Of a stretch of 20,948 bases of DNA, positions 5,487 to 16,975 are shown in pieces. A model generated the notes under the pieces. It worked only from the letters and a program-made list of their open reading frames with translations. It made no database searches and had not been told where the DNA came from. Source of the stretch: Deltaproteobacteria bacterium. GTDB taxonomy: Bacteria; Bdellovibrionota_F; JAHFAK01. The translations under genes and the position numbers were made by a program. The stretch covers positions 1 to 20,948 of the forward strand of contig JAHFAK010000006.1 of assembly GCA_023250585.1 (NCBI GenBank), read 5' to 3'. Each line of letters opens with the position of its first letter. The first letter of the stretch is position 1.

Positions 5487-5595
5487 GTAGGTGAGGAATT
5501 CTCTTTTTAAAAAATTATTAAAATGTGTTTCCTCTTATTAAAACTTCACTGAGTAAAATTTTAATAATTTTTTAAAAAGAGAATTCCTCACCTAC
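5487..5595. repeat. Long perfect palindrome (element A) after pilQ
   Basis: Two 38-base arms (5487-5524 and 5558-5595) are exact reverse complements around a 33-base loop (5525-5557). The left arm starts two bases after the pilQ stop. The stem is far longer than an intrinsic terminator, has no terminal T tract and contains a GAATTC and an A/T-rich centre. The loop contains TTTCCTCTTATTAAAA, matching 13 of 16 bases of the loop motif in the elements at 8738 and 15595. The arms share the interrupted pattern GTAGGT, TTCT, AAAAAA, TATT with the 8738 element. It is probably a non-coding mobile repeat of the same family; in RNA it would fold as a very stable hairpin and could also affect transcription of the downstream pilB. 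Confidence 0.85.
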
Positions 5596-5625
5596 TATAG
5601 GACTCTCTGAAAAACTCATATTTAA

Positions 5626-5752
5626 GGGAACCTCTCAAAAAGGTCCAGATGTAAGGCGCACGTAAAGTCACAACCAGAGCATACTCAGGTAGTATGTGAG
5701 GATTGTGACTCTTGTGTGCAACGAAGCAGATGGACCTTTTTCAGAGGTTCCT
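5626..5752. mobile_element. MITE-like element with 21-base terminal inverted repeats
   Basis: The ends 5627-5647 and 5731-5751 are inverted repeats matching at 20 of 21 bases (GGAACCTCT, one mismatch, then AAAAAGGTCCA). Inside, two further nested stems are visible: AGTCACAA (5666-5673) with TTGTGACT (5703-5710), and CATACT (5680-5685) with AGTATG (5691-5696) around a 5-base loop. The whole 125 bases could fold as one imperfect cruciform. No open frame for a transposase is present. The ends resemble, from memory and unverified, terminal repeats of IS4/IS5-superfamily insertion sequences. A related end-like sequence (AGGACTCTCTGAAAAA) lies just upstream at 5599-5614. The element separates pilQ from pilB, whose start at 5767 is only 15 bases beyond it and has no SD. 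Confidence 0.65.
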
Positions 5753-5766
5753 AAAAATGATGGTAT

Positions 5767-8690: not shown

Positions 8691-8737
8691 AGATCCTATA
8701 TATCCACGGTCAAGCTTGCAACAATGACATAAGAAGT

Positions 8738-8883
8738 TAACAGCTCAATTACTAGGGTGTAGGTAAGTTCTAAAAAAGTATTCCTATCGACGTCGCTTCC
8801 ATAATACTATTAAGAACAGGAAAGCGCGCTCGATAGGAATACTTTTTTAGAACTTACCTACACCCTAGTAACTGAGGGATTAC
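8738..8883. repeat. Long palindromic element, copy C1
   Basis: Arms 8749-8790 and 8830-8871 are perfect reverse complements (42 bases) around a 39-base loop (8791-8829); pairing extends to 8744/8876 with one mismatch. A small internal stem (GCTTCC with GGAAaGC) is possible in the loop. The loop is identical, in reverse complement, to that of the element at 15595-15743. Homology to that copy continues outside the arms: TAACAGCTC on the left (8738-8746) and TAACTGAGGGATTAC on the right (8869-8883). It lies between the convergent ends of pilC and the FimT-like gene and could stop transcription from both sides. No coding frame or transposase is present. Confidence 0.92.
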
Positions 8884-8893
8884 GTAAGAAGAT

Positions 8894-9391
8894 TCACGGA
8901 CTATAGACCCTACCCGTACCTGTCGTAACCGTTATAGTCTTCGTCACTGTCCCATCAGTAATTTGAACATTGCCACCTCCACCGGTTGTAGGGCTACCGT
9001 ATTGATTAAATTCGACGGTAAAATTAGCCACAATAGAAACACCGGGAAAGCGCGTAAAACTTTCAATTAAATTTTGTTTGGTTAATGGATCGGCGACAGG
9101 AGTAGCAGTCGTACCTTGATATACGGTATATCGATTATTAGTCTTATCAAAAAATACCCCAAATGTCGTTCCTTTTTTAGTCATGGCTAATTGTTGCGCA
9201 AAATTAATGTCCGAAACAATTTTATGTTTCGCAACTTCTATATATGTTTTTTTATAATTAAAAACGACAACGGTTGCTGCCGCACCTAATATGCCTAAAA
9301 GCGCAATGACGAGCACAAGTTCAATGATCGTAAAACCCTTAACGGGTAGCGTATAGCGCTTAGCGGATAGTTTTAATACATCGTATTTCAT
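8894..9391 (-). CDS. FimT/GspH-like minor pilin
   Basis: This 165-residue pseudopilin has an unusually long 19-residue leader ending in KG, then FTIIELVLVIALLGILG. The predicted cleavage is G19/F20 with Glu5 of the mature protein at residue 24. After the hydrophobic helix comes a beta-rich domain with a Gly-rich loop (PTTGGGGNVQ) and a C-terminal TGTGRVYSP, like the conserved Gly-Arg end of FimT/GspH. An SD (AAGGAGA) precedes the ATG at 9391. It is the last gene of the rightward-to-leftward pilin operon and ends ten bases before the palindromic element C1. In the pilus it would be a minor pilin of the priming complex. Confidence 0.84.
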   Translation of the reverse strand: MKYDVLKLSAKRYTLPVKGFTIIELVLVIALLGILGAAATVVVFNYKKTYIEVAKHKIVSDINFAQQLAMTKKGTTFGVFFDKTNNRYTVYQGTTATPVADPLTKQNLIESFTRFPGVSIVANFTVEFNQYGSPTTGGGGNVQITDGTVTKTITVTTGTGRVYSP

Positions 9392-9414
9392 CGGCTTCTC
9401 CTTACTATACGCTA
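9347..9414 (-). promoter_or_regulatory. Inverted repeat spanning the start of the FimT-like gene
   Basis: TAGCGTATAG (9347-9356) and CTATACGCTA (9405-9414) are exact reverse complements enclosing 48 bases that include both the SD and the ATG. In mRNA this could hide the start region, but a 10-pair stem with so long a loop is weak. Related words (CTATAC, TAGCGG) recur nearby, so it may be simple local repetition. Confidence 0.3.
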
Positions 9415-9435
9415 TGTGCTATACACTGACCAACA

Positions 9436-9858
9436 CTATGGGCATGCAGCCGTTTGATTTATGAATGTACCTGCTGCTGAGGAATAGACATAATACTCTG
9501 CAGTTCCGTTATTATCGAAATGATAGCAGGTATCGGATTTTTTCGTCCATCCCTTCTGTGTCGTTCCACCTTGGATAACAGTACCATAGAATGGTTTACT
9601 GTTAGCACTCACATCATCCACAGCTCGAGCATCAAGTGCTGCTGGATAACTAACAGAGTTACCCTGCGCTACTTGATCAGCCGCATAGTTAGATAATCCA
9701 GTCTGTACTGCAGCAGCCGTTGCATCACGCGCATTTTCGCGCGCTGTCGTTGTAGAGATAGAAAACAATTTAGGTAAAGCGGCAGCGGCAAGAATTCCTA
9801 AAAGAGCAATAACGAGGACGAGTTCAATTAGTGTAAAACCTTGATTCTTTGTTTTCAT
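9436..9858 (-). CDS. Type IV pilin, probable major pilin (PilA-like)
   Basis: This 140-residue prepilin has a six-residue basic leader plus Gly: MKTKNQG, then FTLIELVLVIALLGILAAAA. Cleavage is predicted at G7/F8 with Glu5 at residue 12. The helix is followed by a small beta domain with two cysteines (C111 and C139) near the C-terminus, consistent with the disulfide-bonded D-region of many major pilins. The short leader, strong G-rich ribosome-binding site (AAGGGGGG upstream) and position behind a strong promoter fit a highly expressed major subunit. A T2SS GspG-like role is less likely because the calcium-site end typical of GspG is missing here. Confidence 0.82.
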   Translation of the reverse strand: MKTKNQGFTLIELVLVIALLGILAAAALPKLFSISTTTARENARDATAAAVQTGLSNYAADQVAQGNSVSYPAALDARAVDDVSANSKPFYGTVIQGGTTQKGWTKKSDTCYHFDNNGTAEYYVYSSAAGTFINQTAACP

Positions 9859-9891
9859 AATTTCACCCCCCTTTTTTTTTACGATACATTC

Positions 9892-10302
9892 TTACCATGA
9901 CTCATATCCCTTCGTTGATGATCGAATGGCGCCTGTTTCTCGATCATATTGATAGGGACTATTAAAAGGATCAAGAAGCCAACCATCTTTAGTTATCTGC
10001 AAATTCTTCCAATCAAGCATAATCGCGTTCGAATTTTCTTTCAACCTTTTTACAAGATTCATCAAATTATTGGGCTTTGCTTGATACATCTTAACATGCA
10101 TTTGCATCGCCGCTCGTAGAGTTCTTAACTGATAGATAAGAGTTTTTTCATTTTCATTTCTGATATCTACCTTAACGTAAACAAACCCAATACTCATTAC
10201 TATACACAAAGCACCAAGAAAAACCAATTTTTCCCCTATGCCTCGTTTCTTCTGAGGTATACTCGGCATTGGGTTGGTAGTATTTTGCTCTATATGCTCC
10301 AT
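9892..10302 (-). CDS. GspG-like pilin-fold protein without a clear prepilin cleavage site
   Basis: This is a 136-residue bitopic protein. A 20-residue hydrophilic N-terminus ends in KKRG, followed by IGEKLVFLGALCIVMSIGFVYV (transmembrane about 25-45). The C-terminal part has LLDPFNSPYQYDRETGAI, the pattern of GspG-type pseudopilins (D-P-W/F-G/N-x-P-Y-x-Y). The usual G-F-T-L-I-E junction is absent: if cleaved after G21, Glu would be at position 3, not 5. It may be a pilin-like membrane protein that is no longer processed, or one processed at an unusual site. It is the first gene behind the strong promoter at 10347-10375 with GGGGG as SD, and lies 33 bases before the PilA-like gene. Confidence 0.62.
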   Translation of the reverse strand: MEHIEQNTTNPMPSIPQKKRGIGEKLVFLGALCIVMSIGFVYVKVDIRNENEKTLIYQLRTLRAAMQMHVKMYQAKPNNLMNLVKRLKENSNAIMLDWKNLQITKDGWLLDPFNSPYQYDRETGAIRSSTKGYESW

Positions 10303-10346
10303 AATTCCCCCTTAAAAAATGTAGCTATACGCAATTTGGCATTGTA

Positions 10347-10375
10347 ACTATAACATGTTTTACTGTCTGTGTCAA
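10347..10375 (-). promoter_or_regulatory. Strong sigma70-type promoter for the pilin genes
   Basis: On the - strand a consensus -35 TTGACA (10370-10375) and TATAGT (10347-10352) are separated by exactly 17 bases. Transcription would start near 10340, leaving about 38 bases of leader with a G-rich SD before the ATG at 10302. This is the best promoter in the window and matches the expected high expression of a major pilin. Confidence 0.8.
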
Positions 10376-10391
10376 TCATTTTTTACTAACC

Positions 10392-11453
10392 TCATAGAGT
10401 TGCTAGCATTCGCTCGAGTTCATCTCTATCGGAGGTACGAGAAAAAGCGGCTTCTTTACTGACATGCCCATCTTGAATAAGGCGGGCTAATGATTGGTTC
10501 AGTGTAATCATTCCTGTTTTTTCTTGGCCTACTTGCATTTGAGAATAAATTTGGTGAACTTTATTTTCACGAATGAGATTACGAATTGCAGGAGTGCTTA
10601 TGAGAATTTCTAATGCTGCCGCGCGCCCACCATTTTTTTTAGGAATAAGTTGTTGACTGATCACTCCCTGCAATATGAAAGAAAGTTGCGTACGAATTTG
10701 GGCTTGTTGATGAGAAGGAAATACATCGATAATTCTATCAATGGTACTTGCCGCAGTATTAGTATGGAGTGTTGCAAAAACAAGATGCCCTGTTTCTGCT
10801 GTTGTAATAGCTGCAGATATAGTTGCAAGATCTCGCATTTCTCCAATTAAAACGACATCAGGATCCTGGCGTAAAATATATTTAAGAGAAGTAATAAATG
10901 ACTCAGTATCACGGCCGACTTCTCGTTGAGTGATAACTGAATTCTTATGAGAATGAACAAATTCAATGGGGTCCTCAATAGTAATAATATGTTCATGATG
11001 CTTTTCATTGATACGATCAATCATTGATGCCATGGTTGTTGATTTTCCCGAACCAGTGGGACCAGTAATCAAAATAAGACCATTTTCTTTTTCAGTAAGA
11101 TTAATGATTGATTGAGGAAGTCCAAGCGTTTCAATTTTTGGAATAATCATTGGTATAGGACGTAAAGCTGCAGCAACGGATTCTTGTTGCATAAAAATAT
11201 TTGCTCGAAAGCGTGATTTATTATCATGAGTAAATGAAAGGTCTAATTCATGTTTTTTTTCGAATTCTTGAATCTGTTCTGGAGTCAATATTTCGTAACA
11301 CAGTTCTTGTGCCTCTTTTCGTGTAAGAGGATGGTTGTCTATTTTTGCTAAATGTCCATCAATACGAAACTGAGGGGGGGTTCCCTCAGCAATGTGAATG
11401 TCAGAAGCCTTTTGTTCAAGACTCATGGTCAGCAATTCTTTAAGTGTTTTCAT
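10392..11453 (-). CDS. pilT: PilT, T4P retraction ATPase
   Basis: This 353-residue hexameric ATPase powers pilus retraction and so twitching or DNA uptake. Motifs: SDIHI (17-21), Walker A GPTGSGKS (131-138), ITIEDPIEF (Asp box, 157-165), Walker B in LRQDPDVVLIGEMRD (194-208), His box GHLVFATLHTNTA (222-234) and the PilT hallmark AIRNLIRE (289-296). There is no MshEN domain and no zinc-binding cysteine pair, which separates it from PilB. It is divergent from the PilV-like gene at 11535 and is not in one operon with pilB/pilC. A TATAAC about ten bases upstream of the ATG could be its -10 box, though the -35 is poor. Confidence 0.95.
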   Translation of the reverse strand: MKTLKELLTMSLEQKASDIHIAEGTPPQFRIDGHLAKIDNHPLTRKEAQELCYEILTPEQIQEFEKKHELDLSFTHDNKSRFRANIFMQQESVAAALRPIPMIIPKIETLGLPQSIINLTEKENGLILITGPTGSGKSTTMASMIDRINEKHHEHIITIEDPIEFVHSHKNSVITQREVGRDTESFITSLKYILRQDPDVVLIGEMRDLATISAAITTAETGHLVFATLHTNTAASTIDRIIDVFPSHQQAQIRTQLSFILQGVISQQLIPKKNGGRAAALEILISTPAIRNLIRENKVHQIYSQMQVGQEKTGMITLNQSLARLIQDGHVSKEAAFSRTSDRDELERMLATL

Positions 11454-11493
11454 AACTTGTTGTTATAATGAGTAAATTTATTTCCTTTACATA

Positions 11494-11522
11494 TTGATAA
11501 CATAATCCTATCCTTTTATTAT
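11494..11522 (+). promoter_or_regulatory. Promoter for the minor-pilin operon
   Basis: TTGATA (11494-11499) and TATTAT (11517-11522) are spaced by 17 bases. Transcription would start near 11529, about six bases before the ATG at 11535, again implying a nearly leaderless mRNA with no SD. It lies in the 81-base divergent gap with pilT. Confidence 0.55.
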
Positions 11523-11534
11523 TATAGCATTTTT

Positions 11535-11996
11535 ATGAAGACGTGTATAGCATTTTTAAAGAAAAAAGATTATGGATTTACCCTCATTGAAGGGGTCTTG
11601 GCAGTACTCATAATTGGGGTTGGACTTATTGGAGTACTCTCCATTTTTGGTGGCGCAACGAGTCGTTCTCTCAATGCAGATCAAGTGAGCGTCGCCCAAA
11701 ATCTTGCCGAAGAAAAAATCGAAACAATTATTGCCAATAAAGCCAATGCTAATTACACAACGGTCGTTAATAATATCAATACAGGAAACTACAATGATGG
11801 ACCTATTTTCACTATCTATACGCGTACGGTAACACGAAGTTTTATTAATGTTCCCGCAAGTCCTGATGGTAATAGTACCGACGATTTTTCAAGTGTCTCC
11901 GGCAGCGATACAGGCTATGCCTTAGTAACGGTAACCGTTAGTTTCAATAATGGAAATAATTCAGTTATGCTCAAAACTCTTTTAAGTAATTGGTAA
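11535..11996 (+). CDS. PilV/GspI-like minor pilin
   Basis: This 153-residue prepilin has leader MKTCIAFLKKKDYG, then FTLIEGVLAVLIIGVGLIGVL. Cleavage is predicted at G14/F15 with Glu5 at residue 19. The helix with the pattern E-G-V-L-A-x-x-I-I-G-V-G is typical of PilV/GspI, and AQNLAEEKIETI resembles the following ARxxAEE-type helix of that group. The rest is a short beta domain. It opens an operon of minor pilins whose order (PilV-, PilW-, PilX-like) matches the priming-complex genes of other T4P systems. Confidence 0.82.
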   Translation: MKTCIAFLKKKDYGFTLIEGVLAVLIIGVGLIGVLSIFGGATSRSLNADQVSVAQNLAEEKIETIIANKANANYTTVVNNINTGNYNDGPIFTIYTRTVTRSFINVPASPDGNSTDDFSSVSGSDTGYALVTVTVSFNNGNNSVMLKTLLSNW

Positions 11997-11999
11997 AAC

Positions 12000-12494
12000 A
12001 TGAACAAGCATCATCACATATCAAAAGGTTTCACAATGGTTGAGCTTGTACTCGTTATTGCTCTTTTGGGTATCATTGGTACAGTTACTGGATATATGCT
12101 TACCGAGTCTCTCAAATCATATACATTAGTAGCCGCACGCAATGATTCACTCGCCGATGCGAGACGAGCAATAGAACGGATAAAGTCAGAACTCCGGATT
12201 GCGACTGGAATCGATAGTATGAGCGCTACTTCTGTGCAATTTGATACGACGCAAGAAAATAATATTCCGTATACCCTCACCGGAACTGACCTTAAACGTA
12301 GTGGAAATGATATTGCAAAAAATGTAAGTGCTTTCACATTTACCTATTTTGATGCAGCGGGAAATGTTACCGTAACTCCTGCAAACGTGCGACGAATACA
12401 GCTCGACATAACAGTCTCAACAACATCACATGGAACGAATCGCCTTCGTTCTCAGGTATATTTACGAAGATATTATTATACAAATTTTCAATGA
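12000..12494 (+). CDS. PilW/GspJ-like minor pilin
   Basis: This 164-residue prepilin has leader MNKHHHISKG, then FTMVELVLVIALLGIIG. Cleavage is predicted at G10/F11 with Glu5 at residue 15. The helix extends into ARNDSLADARRAIERIKSEL, as in PilW/GspJ proteins, followed by a beta-rich domain. It starts three bases after the previous stop without an SD. Its stop overlaps the next start (ATGA), so translation of this and the PilX-like gene is probably coupled. Confidence 0.8.
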   Translation: MNKHHHISKGFTMVELVLVIALLGIIGTVTGYMLTESLKSYTLVAARNDSLADARRAIERIKSELRIATGIDSMSATSVQFDTTQENNIPYTLTGTDLKRSGNDIAKNVSAFTFTYFDAAGNVTVTPANVRRIQLDITVSTTSHGTNRLRSQVYLRRYYYTNFQ

Positions 12495-13225
12495 AAGACA
12501 CCAATAGAAAAAGCTTTGCTCTTTTAGGAGCTATCATCTCAATCTTAATTCTTGCAGCCTTCGGAACAGGCATTGCCGTATTCGTTGCGGGTAGAAATCA
12601 AGGAACAATTACTCAAATTTCAACAGCAAAATCATTCTATGCATTGCAGGCTGGTGTTGAATTTGCGCAGCGAAAACTACGTGCTACGGGTGAGGGTATA
12701 TCATTGAACACCCTTGCAGGAACGTATGAATTTGGGAATACGACTTTTACGATTTCGAGTGGCGGAGCTAATACGGTAATTATTCGAGGGAATAATCAAG
12801 ATGCGGTAAGCCAATACCAAACAGATATTCCTCTGGTTAACCAAGCTAATTGTTTTATAATTAATGCAAGCGGCGCGCATCAGAGCATAGCAAAACTTCG
12901 CGGCATAACATTACAACGTGCTTCAGGGTGTTCACTATCTCTCACGCTGAGCGCTCTTACTGGTACCTGGACTCCAAATAATAGCGAACGACTCAATCGA
13001 ATTAAAATAGAAGAAGCTGCATTTGAATATGATAGCGCCGTTGGAGTAGCATCTGGTGAAACGGCAGTGTTTGATAATCCCTATACCATCAATGATAATG
13101 CCATTCGAGACTTTGTTGAAATTCAATGGGATAAAAATCTCGGGGGGAATAAAGATTTTGATTTCATTGCTACCATGAGTGATGGCAGCACATTGCCATT
13201 CGCGGTTCACTTACTTAATCCATGA
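12491..13225 (+). CDS. PilX/GspK-like minor pilin, copy 1
   Basis: This 244-residue protein has an N-terminus KSFALLGAIISILILAAF, a hydrophobic helix without Glu5 (Gly takes its place), as in GspK and many PilX proteins. YALQAGVEFAQRKL is the Q-A-G-[IV]-E-[YF]-A pattern of the PilX group. A large beta-rich domain follows, with a cysteine pair (about 117 and 143 by position) that may form a disulfide. The residue before the expected cleavage site is Ser (S8/F9) rather than Gly; its paralogue at 14859 has Gly there. Overlaps the PilW-like stop by four bases. It probably caps the initiating minor-pilin complex. Confidence 0.78.
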   Translation: MKDTNRKSFALLGAIISILILAAFGTGIAVFVAGRNQGTITQISTAKSFYALQAGVEFAQRKLRATGEGISLNTLAGTYEFGNTTFTISSGGANTVIIRGNNQDAVSQYQTDIPLVNQANCFIINASGAHQSIAKLRGITLQRASGCSLSLTLSALTGTWTPNNSERLNRIKIEEAAFEYDSAVGVASGETAVFDNPYTINDNAIRDFVEIQWDKNLGGNKDFDFIATMSDGSTLPFAVHLLNP

Positions 13226-13237
13226 TTGTAGAGGAAT

Positions 13238-14431
13238 ATGTATTCTCATACTGAAATCTTAAAAAAAATACCGCTCTTCTCAAAACTCAATGCCAAAGAG
13301 TTAGAAGAACTTACCCATATAGCCAATGCCCAAACTCATCAAAAAGGAAGTATATTAATCGAAGAAGGAACGTATGGTGGAGAACTCTATATTTTAATTA
13401 ATGGAGAACTTTCGATTTGGAAGAAAGATACAACAGGACATGCGCTTGAACTATCTCAATTAAAAGAAGCTGGGGATTTTGTAGGAGAGATGTCTCTTTT
13501 TGATCAAAAGCCACGAAGCGCTACGGTGGAAGTACGAAAAAAATCAGAGATACTTAAAATTGAACGAAAAGATTTGTTGTCAAAACTGTCGAACCCGCAA
13601 AATATTTTAATCAAAATTCTTGAAGAAATTTCTCTCAGATTTCGAGAATTTGATGACAAATATTTTCATGAAATTCTTGCAAAAACCGAAGCATTAGAAA
13701 AAGCAAATCAAGAGTTACAAAAGTTAGACGAATTAAAAAGTAATTTTATTTCTCTGTCGAGTCATGAATTAAAAACACCGCTGAATTCTATCCTGAATGC
13801 TTCCAGCCTGCTTTTGGAATTCATGAAAGATAAACTCAATGAAAACGAAAAAAAATGTTTTGGCCTTATCAATACAAATGCAAAACGTCTCAACTATGCA
13901 TATGACCAAATTATTCGTGTTGCAGAACTTGAAAATCCTCATATTGAACTTCAAGGCTTTGAAGACAATAATATAAACCTTATTATCGACGAGGTAGTGG
14001 ATGAAATATCTCCTTTTATTGAAAAGCGTAACCAAAAACTTACCGTAAACAAAGGGACTATACCCTTAATCCCTTTAAACAAAGAACAAATACGCCAAGC
14101 AGTCCTCAATGTTATTCTTAATTCTATCAAGTTTACACCTGATACAGGAGAAATTATTATTTCATCTTCTAGAAAAAATGATTATCTTGAAATACAGGTC
14201 AAGGATACAGGGATAGGAATATCTCTCGATGAACAAGAAAAAATTTTTGATTCGTTTTATGAAATTGGCAATATCAACACCCATAAATCAGGAACCTATG
14301 AATTTATGAGTAAAGGTTTGGGACTTGGATTATCAATCGCAAAAAAATTTATTGAAACAAATAAAGGAGTAATTCGTGTACAAAGTAAAGAAGGTCAAGG
14401 CGCTACTTTTATAATCAGCTTTAAGATATAG
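13238..14431 (+). CDS. Soluble histidine kinase with N-terminal cNMP-binding domain
   Basis: This 397-residue cytoplasmic kinase has no transmembrane segment. Order: cyclic-nucleotide-binding (Crp-like) domain at about 1-125, with GELYILINGELSI and GDFVGEMSLFDQKPRSATV; a coiled-coil linker at about 135-168; HisKA with phospho-acceptor H176 in SSHELKTPL; HATPase domain with N-box NVILNSIKF (291-299), G1 DTGIGI (323-328) and G2 GLGLGL (360-365). The R-S-A-T in the phosphate-binding cassette suggests that cAMP or c-di-GMP-like ligand binding is possible but the ligand is unknown. It lies inside the minor-pilin operon 12 bases after a PilX-like gene and is followed by a receiver protein, so it may control pilus use in response to an internal nucleotide signal. 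Confidence 0.88.
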   Translation: MYSHTEILKKIPLFSKLNAKELEELTHIANAQTHQKGSILIEEGTYGGELYILINGELSIWKKDTTGHALELSQLKEAGDFVGEMSLFDQKPRSATVEVRKKSEILKIERKDLLSKLSNPQNILIKILEEISLRFREFDDKYFHEILAKTEALEKANQELQKLDELKSNFISLSSHELKTPLNSILNASSLLLEFMKDKLNENEKKCFGLINTNAKRLNYAYDQIIRVAELENPHIELQGFEDNNINLIIDEVVDEISPFIEKRNQKLTVNKGTIPLIPLNKEQIRQAVLNVILNSIKFTPDTGEIIISSSRKNDYLEIQVKDTGIGISLDEQEKIFDSFYEIGNINTHKSGTYEFMSKGLGLGLSIAKKFIETNKGVIRVQSKEGQGATFIISFKI

Positions 14432-14471
14432 GGCACTTCTAATAACTATGTTTTTTGGGAACCTCTAATAA
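14431..14471 (+). repeat. Tandem end-like repeats related to the 5626 element
   Basis: GGGCACTTCTAATAA (14431-14445) and GGGAACCTCTAATAA (14457-14471) match at 13 of 15 bases. The second contains GGGAACCTCT, identical to the left end of the MITE-like element at 5626-5635. They may be remnant ends of a past insertion between the kinase and receiver genes; the second also supplies part of the AGGAG SD of the receiver gene. Confidence 0.4.
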
Positions 14472-14480
14472 GGAGAATAT

Positions 14481-14849
14481 ATGTCAAAAAAAATATTACT
14501 CGTTGATGATGAAGAATCATTGGTTGTACTGTTAGGTGAACGTTTAAAATTCAATGGATATGAAGTTATTACTGCTTCTGATGGCCAGGAAGGATTAGAC
14601 AAAGCAAAGAAAGAAAAACCAGATCTCATTTTATTAGATGTCATGATGCCTAAAATGAATGGGTATCAAGTATGCCGCCTATTAAAATTCGATCAACGTT
14701 TTAAGCATATTCCCATTATTATGCTGACTGCGCGGACACAAGCCATTGATATGAAAACGGGAAAAGAAACGGGTGCCGATGCCTATATTACCAAACCATT
14801 TGAATCTGATGTACTTTTGAATGAAATGAAAAAACTTCTTAAGGAATAA
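14481..14849 (+). CDS. CheY-like single-domain response regulator
   Basis: This 122-residue receiver domain has no output domain. Conserved residues are all present: acidic pair D9/D10, phospho-acceptor D53 (LLDVMMPKMNG), T83 and K105 (ITKPFE). AGGAG lies at a good distance from the ATG. It directly follows the cNMP-domain kinase and is its likely partner. It would act by protein-protein contact, plausibly on a pilus motor or on another kinase, as CheY/PilG/PilH-type proteins do; the target cannot be read from sequence. It sits between the kinase and the second PilX-like gene. Confidence 0.93.
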   Translation: MSKKILLVDDEESLVVLLGERLKFNGYEVITASDGQEGLDKAKKEKPDLILLDVMMPKMNGYQVCRLLKFDQRFKHIPIIMLTARTQAIDMKTGKETGADAYITKPFESDVLLNEMKKLLKE

Positions 14850-14858
14850 AGGTCTTCT

Positions 14859-15578
14859 TTGATGAAAAGTGGTTTTGCATTACTGGGCGCACTTATTTCA
14901 ATTCTTGTATTAGCTATTTTAGGAACGGGTGTCACCGTAATAGTCTCACGAAATAATCAAGCAACGATTTCACAAATCAGCTCAACTCGTTCTCTCTATG
15001 CTCTTCAAGCAGGCATTGAGTTTGCACAAAGAAAACTCAGAGCTACCGGAGAATCAGTATCAATCAATACTCTCGCAGGCACGTATGAATTTGGAAATAA
15101 TACTTTTACTATTACTAATGGCGGAAATAACACCGTCATTATTTCGGGTAGCGGCCAGGATGCGTTTTCTCAGTTCACGCTCGATATTCCCCAGGTAAAC
15201 CAAGGGACTTGTCTTATTGTACAAACAGATGATGCAGCCATTGATAAGAAAAAGCTCATCGATATCACATTACAGCGTGACCCCTTATGTTCTATTGCCT
15301 TAACAATTACTGCTCTCAAAACCACGTGGACTCCTGATAATAGCGAAAAGCTTGATCATATCCAGATTGAAAAGAATCCTGTTGAATATGATAGTAAAAA
15401 AGGAATTACGTCTGGCCAGACAGCAACATTTAGCAATACCTATACTATTAATAATACCGCTCTACATACAATCACAGAAATCAGATGGGACGTAAATATT
15501 GGCCCGTCAAAATTTGATTTTTTATTTACAATGAGTGATGGAACTACCAAAGCATTGAGTCTCGACTTAAGTCACTAA
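14859..15578 (+). CDS. PilX/GspK-like minor pilin, copy 2
   Basis: This 239-residue paralogue of the protein at 12491-13225 aligns along its whole length (by eye about half the residues identical; the helix, QAGIEFAQRKLRATGE, LAGTYEFGN and FTMSDGT blocks are almost the same). The N-terminus is MMKSG/FALLGALISILVLAI, so the canonical Gly precedes the cleavage point (G5/F6), unlike copy 1. The matching two cysteines are present. It begins nine bases after the receiver gene and ends 16 bases before the palindromic element C2. It may be an alternative tip subunit. Confidence 0.78.
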   Translation: MMKSGFALLGALISILVLAILGTGVTVIVSRNNQATISQISSTRSLYALQAGIEFAQRKLRATGESVSINTLAGTYEFGNNTFTITNGGNNTVIISGSGQDAFSQFTLDIPQVNQGTCLIVQTDDAAIDKKKLIDITLQRDPLCSIALTITALKTTWTPDNSEKLDHIQIEKNPVEYDSKKGITSGQTATFSNTYTINNTALHTITEIRWDVNIGPSKFDFLFTMSDGTTKALSLDLSH

Positions 15579-15594
15579 AAATATTTCTTAGACT

Positions 15595-15743
15595 GTAATC
15601 CCTCAGTTATTAGGGTGTGCGTATGTTTTCAAAAAGTATTTCTATCGAGCGCGCTTTCCTGTTCTTAATAGTATTATGGAAGCGACGTCGATAGAAATAC
15701 TTTTTGAAAACATACGCACACCCTAACTCCCCCAGAGCTGTTA
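15595..15743. repeat. Long palindromic element, copy C2 (inverted relative to C1)
   Basis: Arms 15610-15648 and 15688-15726 are perfect reverse complements (39 bases) around a 39-base loop (15649-15687) that is the exact reverse complement of the C1 loop. Outside the arms GTAATCCCTCAGTTA (15595-15609) and GAGCTGTTA (15735-15743) match C1's flanks in inverted orientation. Compared with C1, the arms differ at six positions, each compensated on the other arm. It lies between convergent genes (PilX-like copy 2 and the GGDEF-like kinase). Confidence 0.92.
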
Positions 15744-15745
15744 CC

Positions 15746-16975
15746 TTAGACTGAAGAGCTGTCTCTCATTCGAGCAAGCTTGAGAAGATTTTCTTCATCA
15801 TGAGCATCTTCAGGATAACTTGCATGTCCCACATTAAATTTAATATGAAGTGGTATTTTACAGTGAGCAAGATAATTTTGTAGAGAACTTTCCAAACGAG
15901 TTTTTACTGCTTCTGCTCCGCTTCTATTACAATCCCGAAGAACCATAAGAAACTCTTCGCCTTCATCAATACTAACATCTCGAAATTTTCGTACCGTATT
16001 TCGTACTACACCTTTTATTTCCTCTACAATAGTTTGGAATTCTCCCCTCGGAAGTTGAGCTTTCACATGATCTACTTCTTCAATAGACAAACTCAAAATC
16101 GACATCGTTGTAGTATTAATATCGATGCTTTTAATTTCATGGTTGATTTCATCGCGAACAACTGTTTCGGGAATGTATTTTGGTAAAGTAAAATTAAACG
16201 TAGAGCCTTGTCCTTCTTTACTTTCAACCCACATAGTTCCTCGATGAATCTTAATGATTCCCTCAGCGATAGAAAGCCCAAGTCCCGTTCCTCTTTCAGA
16301 TGCTTTAAAAGCCGTATGATGAACCTGTTCAAACTTATTGAAAATTCTTTGTAAATCATCGAAAGGAATTCCAATACCATTATCGGCAATCGCAATTTGG
16401 ATAAAATTATTGTCCGCGGCTAAAATGCGATAGGCAACTTTGACAACCCCTTCTGTGGGAGTAAACTTCATTGCATTCCCGAGGATATTGGTAAATACTT
16501 GAATTATCTTATCTACATCAACATATAGCATAGTATCATTCTTAGGATACCGAATAATCAGTCGAATCCCTTTTTCTTGTGCTTTAATATAAAAAGGAGC
16601 GCATGCTTTGTCGAATAGTTCTCGTAACGATATCTTCTCCTTGTGAAGATCCATCTTGCCCGCTTCAATTTTTGATACATCAAGTAGGTTATTAATCATT
16701 CTCGCTAAACGATCAATGCTATCACACACGGTACTTAATGTTTTTTTTTGTTTCACATTAATTTTTCCATAGACGCCGGTGAGCATTAACTCTATTCCCT
16801 CTTTAATGATTGCAAGCGGTGTGCGAAGTTCATGAGAGACGATGGAAACAAAATCAGATTTAAGTTCGTTCTGTTTATTGAGTTCATATTGATCCTTTTC
16901 GAATTGTATTATTTCATTCTCAAGAAGCGTAATGCGTTCTTTTTGCGTTTGGATAAGTACTTCTAAGTTTTTCAT
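15746..16975 (-). CDS. Soluble histidine kinase with C-terminal degenerate GGDEF-like domain
   Basis: This is a 409-residue kinase with no membrane segment and only a short coiled-coil (about 1-40) as input. HisKA has H48 in VSHELRTPL; HATPase has N-box NILGNAMKF (163-171), G1 DNGIGIP (198-204) and G2 GTGLGL (229-234). After a linker, about 290-405 resembles a GGDEF domain: the signature reads EGEEF (338-342) inside SIDEGEEFLMVL, and VGHASYPEDAHDEENLLKLA matches the usual I-G-x-A-x-Y-P-x-D segment. The first signature Gly is replaced and the domain is short at its N-terminal part, so it is more likely a binding or sensing domain than an active diguanylate cyclase. It starts nine bases after the PAS kinase stop; both probably form one operon. 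Confidence 0.85.
   Translation of the reverse strand: MKNLEVLIQTQKERITLLENEIIQFEKDQYELNKQNELKSDFVSIVSHELRTPLAIIKEGIELMLTGVYGKINVKQKKTLSTVCDSIDRLARMINNLLDVSKIEAGKMDLHKEKISLRELFDKACAPFYIKAQEKGIRLIIRYPKNDTMLYVDVDKIIQVFTNILGNAMKFTPTEGVVKVAYRILAADNNFIQIAIADNGIGIPFDDLQRIFNKFEQVHHTAFKASERGTGLGLSIAEGIIKIHRGTMWVESKEGQGSTFNFTLPKYIPETVVRDEINHEIKSIDINTTTMSILSLSIEEVDHVKAQLPRGEFQTIVEEIKGVVRNTVRKFRDVSIDEGEEFLMVLRDCNRSGAEAVKTRLESSLQNYLAHCKIPLHIKFNVGHASYPEDAHDEENLLKLARMRDSSSV

Follow-up and report, generated by a model that had tools for sequence, protein, structure and literature searches.

Dispersed long hairpins with a near-invariant apex and covarying arms in a genome of Bdellovibrionota_F

Integron attC sites have arms that are variable yet self-complementary, are folded from a single strand with conserved unpaired features, and occur in cassette arrays beside an integron integrase, with conserved outer ends, the R boxes. 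Bacterial miniature inverted-repeat transposable elements (MITEs), among them NEMIS, ERIC, RUP and Nezha, are short, non-coding, hairpin-forming and intergenic, with terminal inverted repeats (TIRs) and target duplications. Repetitive extragenic palindromic (REP) sequences measure 20-40 bp, with stems mostly of 6-13 bp, and those of the CGTC type are defined by a unit of 20-40 bp, a stem of 8-9 bp starting AT, a loop of 4-5 nt and a CCA-like tail (PMC3733652). Template switching between inverted repeats is reported to have two outcomes, homogenised arms and an inverted spacer (PMC8604942), and it has been put forward as an explanation for mutations in RNA stems that look compensatory (PMC8794818). 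We report a family of long hairpins, F1, represented by two copies, C1 and C2, in a window of 20,948 nt (positions 1 to 20,948 of the forward strand of contig JAHFAK010000006.1, assembly GCA_023250585.1, from a Deltaproteobacteria bacterium of the GTDB lineage Bacteria; Bdellovibrionota_F; JAHFAK01), together with a smaller sister family, F2. On balance, the arms of these hairpins are probably kept complementary by repeated copying from arm to arm at the DNA level, and their apex is probably preserved by selection for its recognition, most likely in the form of DNA.

Each of the known systems shares part of this description. The TIR-bearing copies of F1 match bacterial MITEs in all of the features listed above; however, about half of the F1 copies have no TIRs and yet share the same hairpin, the apex is invariant while the arms are saturated with change, and the loop is inverted at random with respect to the TIRs. 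Like REP sequences and REPINs, whether GTAG or CGTC tagged, F1 copies are dispersed intergenic palindromes with compensated stem variants, and they carry CGTC on the 5' side of an apical hairpin; unlike REPs they have arms of 35-45 bp, an apex of 43 nt, a loop of about 20 nt and no CCA tail, and many lie between divergent genes. Unlike the GTAG type, moreover, F1 and F2 flank no REP-associated tyrosine transposase (RAYT) gene, as judged from the fetched flanks of the four Y1_Tnp genes. F1 resembles inverted repeats homogenised by template switching (PMC8604942, PMC8794818) in that its arms are homogenised in both directions and its spacer is inverted, but the known cases are single loci, whereas F1 is a genome-wide family that shows both footprints, has TIRs as an internal frame of reference and conserves the spacer. 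As in attC sites, the F1 arms are variable and self-complementary; unlike attC sites, F1 is conserved at the apex and least conserved at the outer arm ends, and its copies are dispersed rather than arrayed.

The MITE component and the template-switch component are of known kinds, and what is new is the TIR-less hairpins, which combine saturated arms with an invariant apex and occur in two families. Compensatory change in a stem is usually taken as proof of a functional RNA, and F1 is both a strong warning against drawing that conclusion too readily and a case on which to test it: near-perfect covariation stands alongside direct footprints of DNA copying in a large natural data set from one genome. 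An apex far more conserved than its stem, in two separate families, also calls for some factor that reads hairpin DNA, in a lineage that has hardly been studied.

C1, C2 and the extent of family F1

C1 lies at 8737-8883 on the forward strand and is a complete, TIR-bearing hairpin of the MITE type, assigned to F1 by its sequence, a covariance model and its TIR family (GTAAt..CTCAGTTA). Its target-site duplications are read at 8729-8736 (ATAAGAAG) and 8884-8891 (GTAAGAAG, identical to the former at 7/8 positions). The left arm (8749-8788) pairs over 40 bp without a mismatch with the right arm (8832-8871), and between them stands the invariant 43-nt apex (8789-8831), in which GA/TC closing pairs are followed by a 3x3 bubble and an apical helix of 5 bp that carries the apical loop. 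C2, also complete and TIR-bearing, lies on the reverse strand at 15595-15744 with its loop in the orientation opposite to that of C1; its arms are at 15610-15646 and 15690-15726, its 43-nt apex is at 15647-15689, and an exact duplication of CTTAGACT can be read at 15587-15594 and 15745-15752.

The sequence-only reading had placed both elements and had described a 39-base loop, identical in reverse complement, between arms that differ at six positions and are nonetheless perfect complements within each element. The positions and the identity of the central 39 bases (8791-8829; 15649-15687) are confirmed, as are the six differences, to which the outermost pair near 8751 should be added, and the pairing is free of mismatches over 40 bp in C1 and 37 bp in C2. 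The 39 bases do not form an open loop, in that they contain a 3x3 mismatch bubble and an apical helix of 5 bp, and the apical loop proper has about 20 nt. The same reading had raised the possibility of an assembly artefact at these palindromes; they are no such artefact, as the arms of C1 and C2 differ, both elements are internal to a contig of 41 kb, and many copies have clean target duplications.

Copies of F1 were located with blastn, a loop pattern and the covariance model, the last built on 58 copies, and occupy 79 dispersed places in the 2.24-Mb genome (covariance model, E < 1e-5); one additional copy is truncated (contig C159, position 30961; C159:30961 in the form used below). The abundance is far above chance: when up to 3 mismatches were allowed, the 32-nt pattern for the loop matched 44 times in the genome and its reversed control 0 times. 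Some copies are found close to the ends of contigs, and the loop of one (C44:11576) contains Ns.

Outside this genome the searches found no F1. The exact loop pattern had 0 matches in the other GTDB genomes searched and in IMG/VR, blastn with the loop had 0 in plasmids and phages, and nothing was found in 58 other genomes. In the sole other genome of the phylum that was compared (G001, GC content 61%) there were 0 covariance-model matches, and 386 kb of it held no hairpin of at least 20 pairs. Covariance-model searches of Rfam gave 0 matches at the gathering score and only sub-threshold hairpins resembling microRNA precursors; at 8757-8863 of the window such matches fell to several microRNA precursor families, a resemblance of long-hairpin structure only. 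The host belongs to a deep, poorly sampled lineage, as judged by the GspE encoded in the window, whose best match in a named genome, a metagenome-assembled genome of Deferribacteres, has 47% identity.

Two copies, L083 (C61:2739-2857) and L183 (C140:135-253, on a short contig), are mosaics: the left arm is unlike the right one, with 7-8 mismatches, and the left flanks of the two copies are similar, which is what recombination of one element with another through the loop would be expected to leave.

Probable arm-to-arm copying and the conserved apex

Among the 58 copies of the model, 96.2% of cells pair, and the covariation score of 0.559 compares with 0.143 in shuffles (0/500 reach it) and with at most 0.143 when the arms are slid; the copies are related, so that the shuffle control overstates the significance, while the slid control does not. 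The sequence-only reading had proposed a covariation test of this kind and had named many copies, a conserved loop and covarying arms as the expected support, all of which the source genome provides. Changes on both sides are seen at 31/38 arm pairs and account for 7729/7998 of the differing pair positions in TIR-less copies (96.6%) and 4348/4595 in TIR copies. Non-Watson-Crick pairs amount to about 1.6%, and the 10 G.T and 11 A.C mismatches counted among 2651 Watson-Crick pairs show no wobble excess. Perfect pairing also runs past the usual length of 35-37 bp, into sequence specific to the copy, and reaches as much as 44-45 bp, which again speaks for copying. A role of the arms as guides to other genomic sequence was considered and rejected, the outer arms returning only self-overlaps and chance matches of 15-18 nt in BLAST.

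Footprints of copying can be read against the two TIR ends, which are unlike, one being GTAAT.CCTCAGTTATTAGGG and the opposite one GTAAC.GCTCAGTTAATGGGGGAGTTAGGG. Within the left end of C1 the inner stretch is CTCAaTTACTAGGG, a near copy of the element's own right end, CTCAGTTACTAGGG, and the outermost bases are still of the original left type. Such end conversion is also found in C50:4136, C70:9204 and C156:2936, with both directions represented, and the bubble has been homogenised in 4 copies, in 3 to the left version and in 1 to the right. Relative to a copy's own TIRs, the loop lies in one orientation in 21 copies and in the other in 18, with at least 13 flips on a tree that is weakly resolved (3/36 branches starred) and has no shuffled count beside it, so that the figure speaks for recurrence and not for rate. 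Both marks of template switching are present: arms have been homogenised in either direction, and the spacer has been inverted.

These end conversions, the inversion of the loop relative to the TIRs and the lack of a G.T excess are the reasons for which copying is favoured over stepwise compensation in an RNA. Either at replication or within a cruciform that has been extruded, one arm would template the other, and each mutation would be either erased or copied across; complementarity would be kept in this way while the arm sequence drifts, and an intermolecular form of the same template switch would invert the loop. The sequence-only reading had left selection on an RNA, selection on a cruciform and copying of one arm from the other side by side; copying has gained from the end conversions and the recurrent loop inversion, and selection on RNA is disfavoured as the sole cause.

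The apex behaves otherwise than the arms. Its 3x3 bubble sets CGT against CGC or CGA and is unpaired in 73/77 copies, and its 5-bp helix, CGCTT/AAGCG, covaries in three copies (GGTT/AACC in C44:6415, a U-A pair in C111:6325 and C158:10079). In TIR-less copies the mean p-distance is 0.607 in the outer arm, 0.296 in the inner arm and 0.107 in the loop core. Ascertainment is an unlikely source of this pattern, because 203 kb taken from stretches without F1 hits contained 0 cases of F1-like arms around another loop. Arm-to-arm copying would let the arms drift at an approximately neutral rate; a neutral loop should therefore drift as well, and the observed loop does not. The conservation of the apex implies a constraint upon it, most simply recognition of DNA. 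With respect to co-directional genes the loop is oriented 19:19, for which reason it is probably not read as sense RNA, and recognition as DNA fits better. The apex would then be held, in sequence and in fold, by purifying selection through a putative recogniser, which may be a DNA-binding protein of the host or else the apparatus by which the TIR-less copies once spread. The earlier remark that something reads the loop is still the best account of its conservation, and the putative reader would then probably recognise it as DNA. Two other candidates for the loop and hairpin were rejected: a CsrA-type GGA site, which is lost in the GGGGT, GAC and GAA variants, and a small open reading frame across the hairpin, whose start codon and frame are unconserved on inspection.

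Several points weigh against this account. The conversion events are deduced by comparing copies inside a single genome, not an ancestral allele with a derived one, since no relative genome carries the element. Random labels on the weakly resolved tree might yield a similar flip count, and the identity of the apex could partly reflect recent spread with fast-mutating arms, or conversion between copies. Neutral flipping of a functionless loop would also randomise its orientation, although its conservation would then be unexplained.

Genomic setting and rival explanations

TIRs are present in 41 of the 77 copies scored by script, C1 and C2 included, and absent in the other 36, which with two unscored copies gives 38 that are TIR-less. 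Where both ends of a TIR copy could be mapped, an 8-bp target duplication is exact in 14/31 and agrees at 6 or more of its 8 positions in 25/31; in TIR-less copies none was seen by eye. The arms contain a T-run in TIR-less copies and an A-run in nearly all TIR copies. The TIR-bearing copies are MITEs. An IS66 transposase was considered for the GTAA ends and 8-bp duplications and rejected, the IS66 DDE domain being absent from the genome; Y1_Tnp, the other transposase family searched, is present but not adjacent. The same TIRs are also found at the ends of another MITE, one with GGATCCCGCGGTCAAGCCGCGGGATGACA palindromes.

F1 copies sit in intergenic gaps, except that three TIR-less copies are inside a predicted reading frame. 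For TIR-less copies the median distance to a stop codon is 12 nt and that to a predicted start is 28 nt, the latter taken to the furthest possible start and so approximate. They separate pheS from pheT, atpG from atpD, carA from carB, tsf from pyrH and tgt from yajC, and likewise era from der, mnmE from maf, hslU from purA and prkA from yhbH. Many of them are probably transcribed, given their placement between genes of likely core operons, and an added role in mRNA processing is possible. Of 70 classified copies, 9 lie between convergent and 23 between divergent genes (8 TIR-less and 15 TIR copies); co-directional placement is seen for 22/33 TIR-less and 16/37 TIR copies, a difference that is not significant (Fisher p = 0.06).

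A bolder form of the copying account, which we put forward only tentatively, is a chromosome-wide DNA hairpin system in which a dedicated host factor would read the near-invariant folded apex, of F1 or F2 type, regardless of its orientation, the stem being a structural handle renewed by arm copying and the sites being placed in core-operon gaps.

It is also conceivable, though unlikely, that the TIR-less hairpins are themselves mobile and that a transposase of the HUH/Y1 type recognises their apex in the form of folded single-stranded DNA, in the manner of REPs and RAYTs, with only intact copies able to spread. The TIR-less copies do lack TIRs and obvious target duplications, the small hairpin that forms their apex follows CGTC, which tags one superfamily of REPs (PMC3733652), and the genome encodes four proteins with a Y1_Tnp domain. 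Yet no F1 or F2 hairpin, and no TIR, was found in the fetched flanks of those four genes; stem length, loop length and tail are unlike those of CGTC REPs, and F2 is without CGTC. Selection for spread alone, moreover, does not keep the apex identical in old copies with nearly saturated arms.

Somewhat less likely again is a functional RNA, in which the hairpin is transcribed between genes as an RNase III site, an mRNA stabiliser or a protein-bound RNA and the stem is kept by stepwise compensatory mutations. The very strong covariation, apical helix included, and the position of TIR-less copies between likely operon genes speak for it. However, G.U is no commoner than A.C (10 against 11), the 19:19 orientation would make the RNA loop the complement in half of the cases, the copies between divergent genes noted above do not suit it, no Rfam family corresponds, and the end-conversion tracts and loop flips call for a process that acts on DNA.

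An ordinary MITE family, in which the perfect palindromes are simply young copies and nothing is selected, appears improbable. It would account for the TIRs of 41 copies, for their target duplications and for the identical TIRs around an unrelated type of palindromic MITE, but 38 copies have no TIRs, and arms that are nearly saturated around loops that are not are the opposite of what young copies with uniform mutation would show. Bidirectional terminators between convergent genes, a placement that C1 and C2 do share, can be set aside with little hesitation, since the convergent copies are a small minority against the divergent, many copies are inside likely essential operons, and the T-runs of C1 and C2 are within the stem, unlike an intrinsic terminator, which lies downstream of genes and has its U-run directly 3' of a GC-rich stem.

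Family F2 and other repeats

The window also contains a TIR-less hairpin of the second family, F2, at 5487-5595 on the reverse strand, with perfect arms of 38 bp around a 33-nt loop (5525-5557), between a gspD-like gene, whose translation was inspected, and a gspE-like gene. F2 has six copies, the others being C100:13817, C75:17412, C25:11329, C101:3381 and C163:5921. The loop, TTTGCTCAGTGAAGTTTTATAAGAGGAAGCAAA, is identical in the five other copies, and the arms differ among all six; they are perfect over 38-46 bp in five copies, and L188 has arm mismatches. The gradient of divergence is as in F1, with 0.60 in the outer arm, 0.34 in the inner arm and a loop identical in five copies.

Other repeats and genes were noted in passing. 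The MITE with GGATCCCGCGGTCAAGCCGCGGGATGACA palindromes carries TIRs of the C1/C2 type and paired palindromes at L087:4135-4290, L089:1929-2086, L090:415-570, L092:2017-2174, L097:2001-2161 and L104:1808-1965; the paired palindromes resemble CGTC-type REP/RPE (Rickettsia palindromic element) sequences of Rickettsia. The four Y1_Tnp-domain proteins are encoded at L282 (C47), L280 (C32), L281 (C69) and L279 (C13) and have 224, 217, 189 and 145 amino acids, the longer three resembling REP-associated tyrosine transposases. A dispersed repeat of a third kind, some 140 bp long and with ends AGGGAACCTCTNAAAAAGGTCCAGAT..., is probably a further MITE; it is found at 5620-5758 of the window, with related sequence at L099:1235-1400 and in L306 near 8782 and an end fragment at 14445-14471 of the window. 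A long-armed palindromic family is centred around CGACGTATTAGAAAATACGCC (L321, 9800-10090; L155, near 2970). Finally, paralogous genes of a pilin/secretion cluster (71% DNA identity over 170 nt) at 12491-13225 and 14859-15578 of the window flank a histidine kinase and a response regulator.

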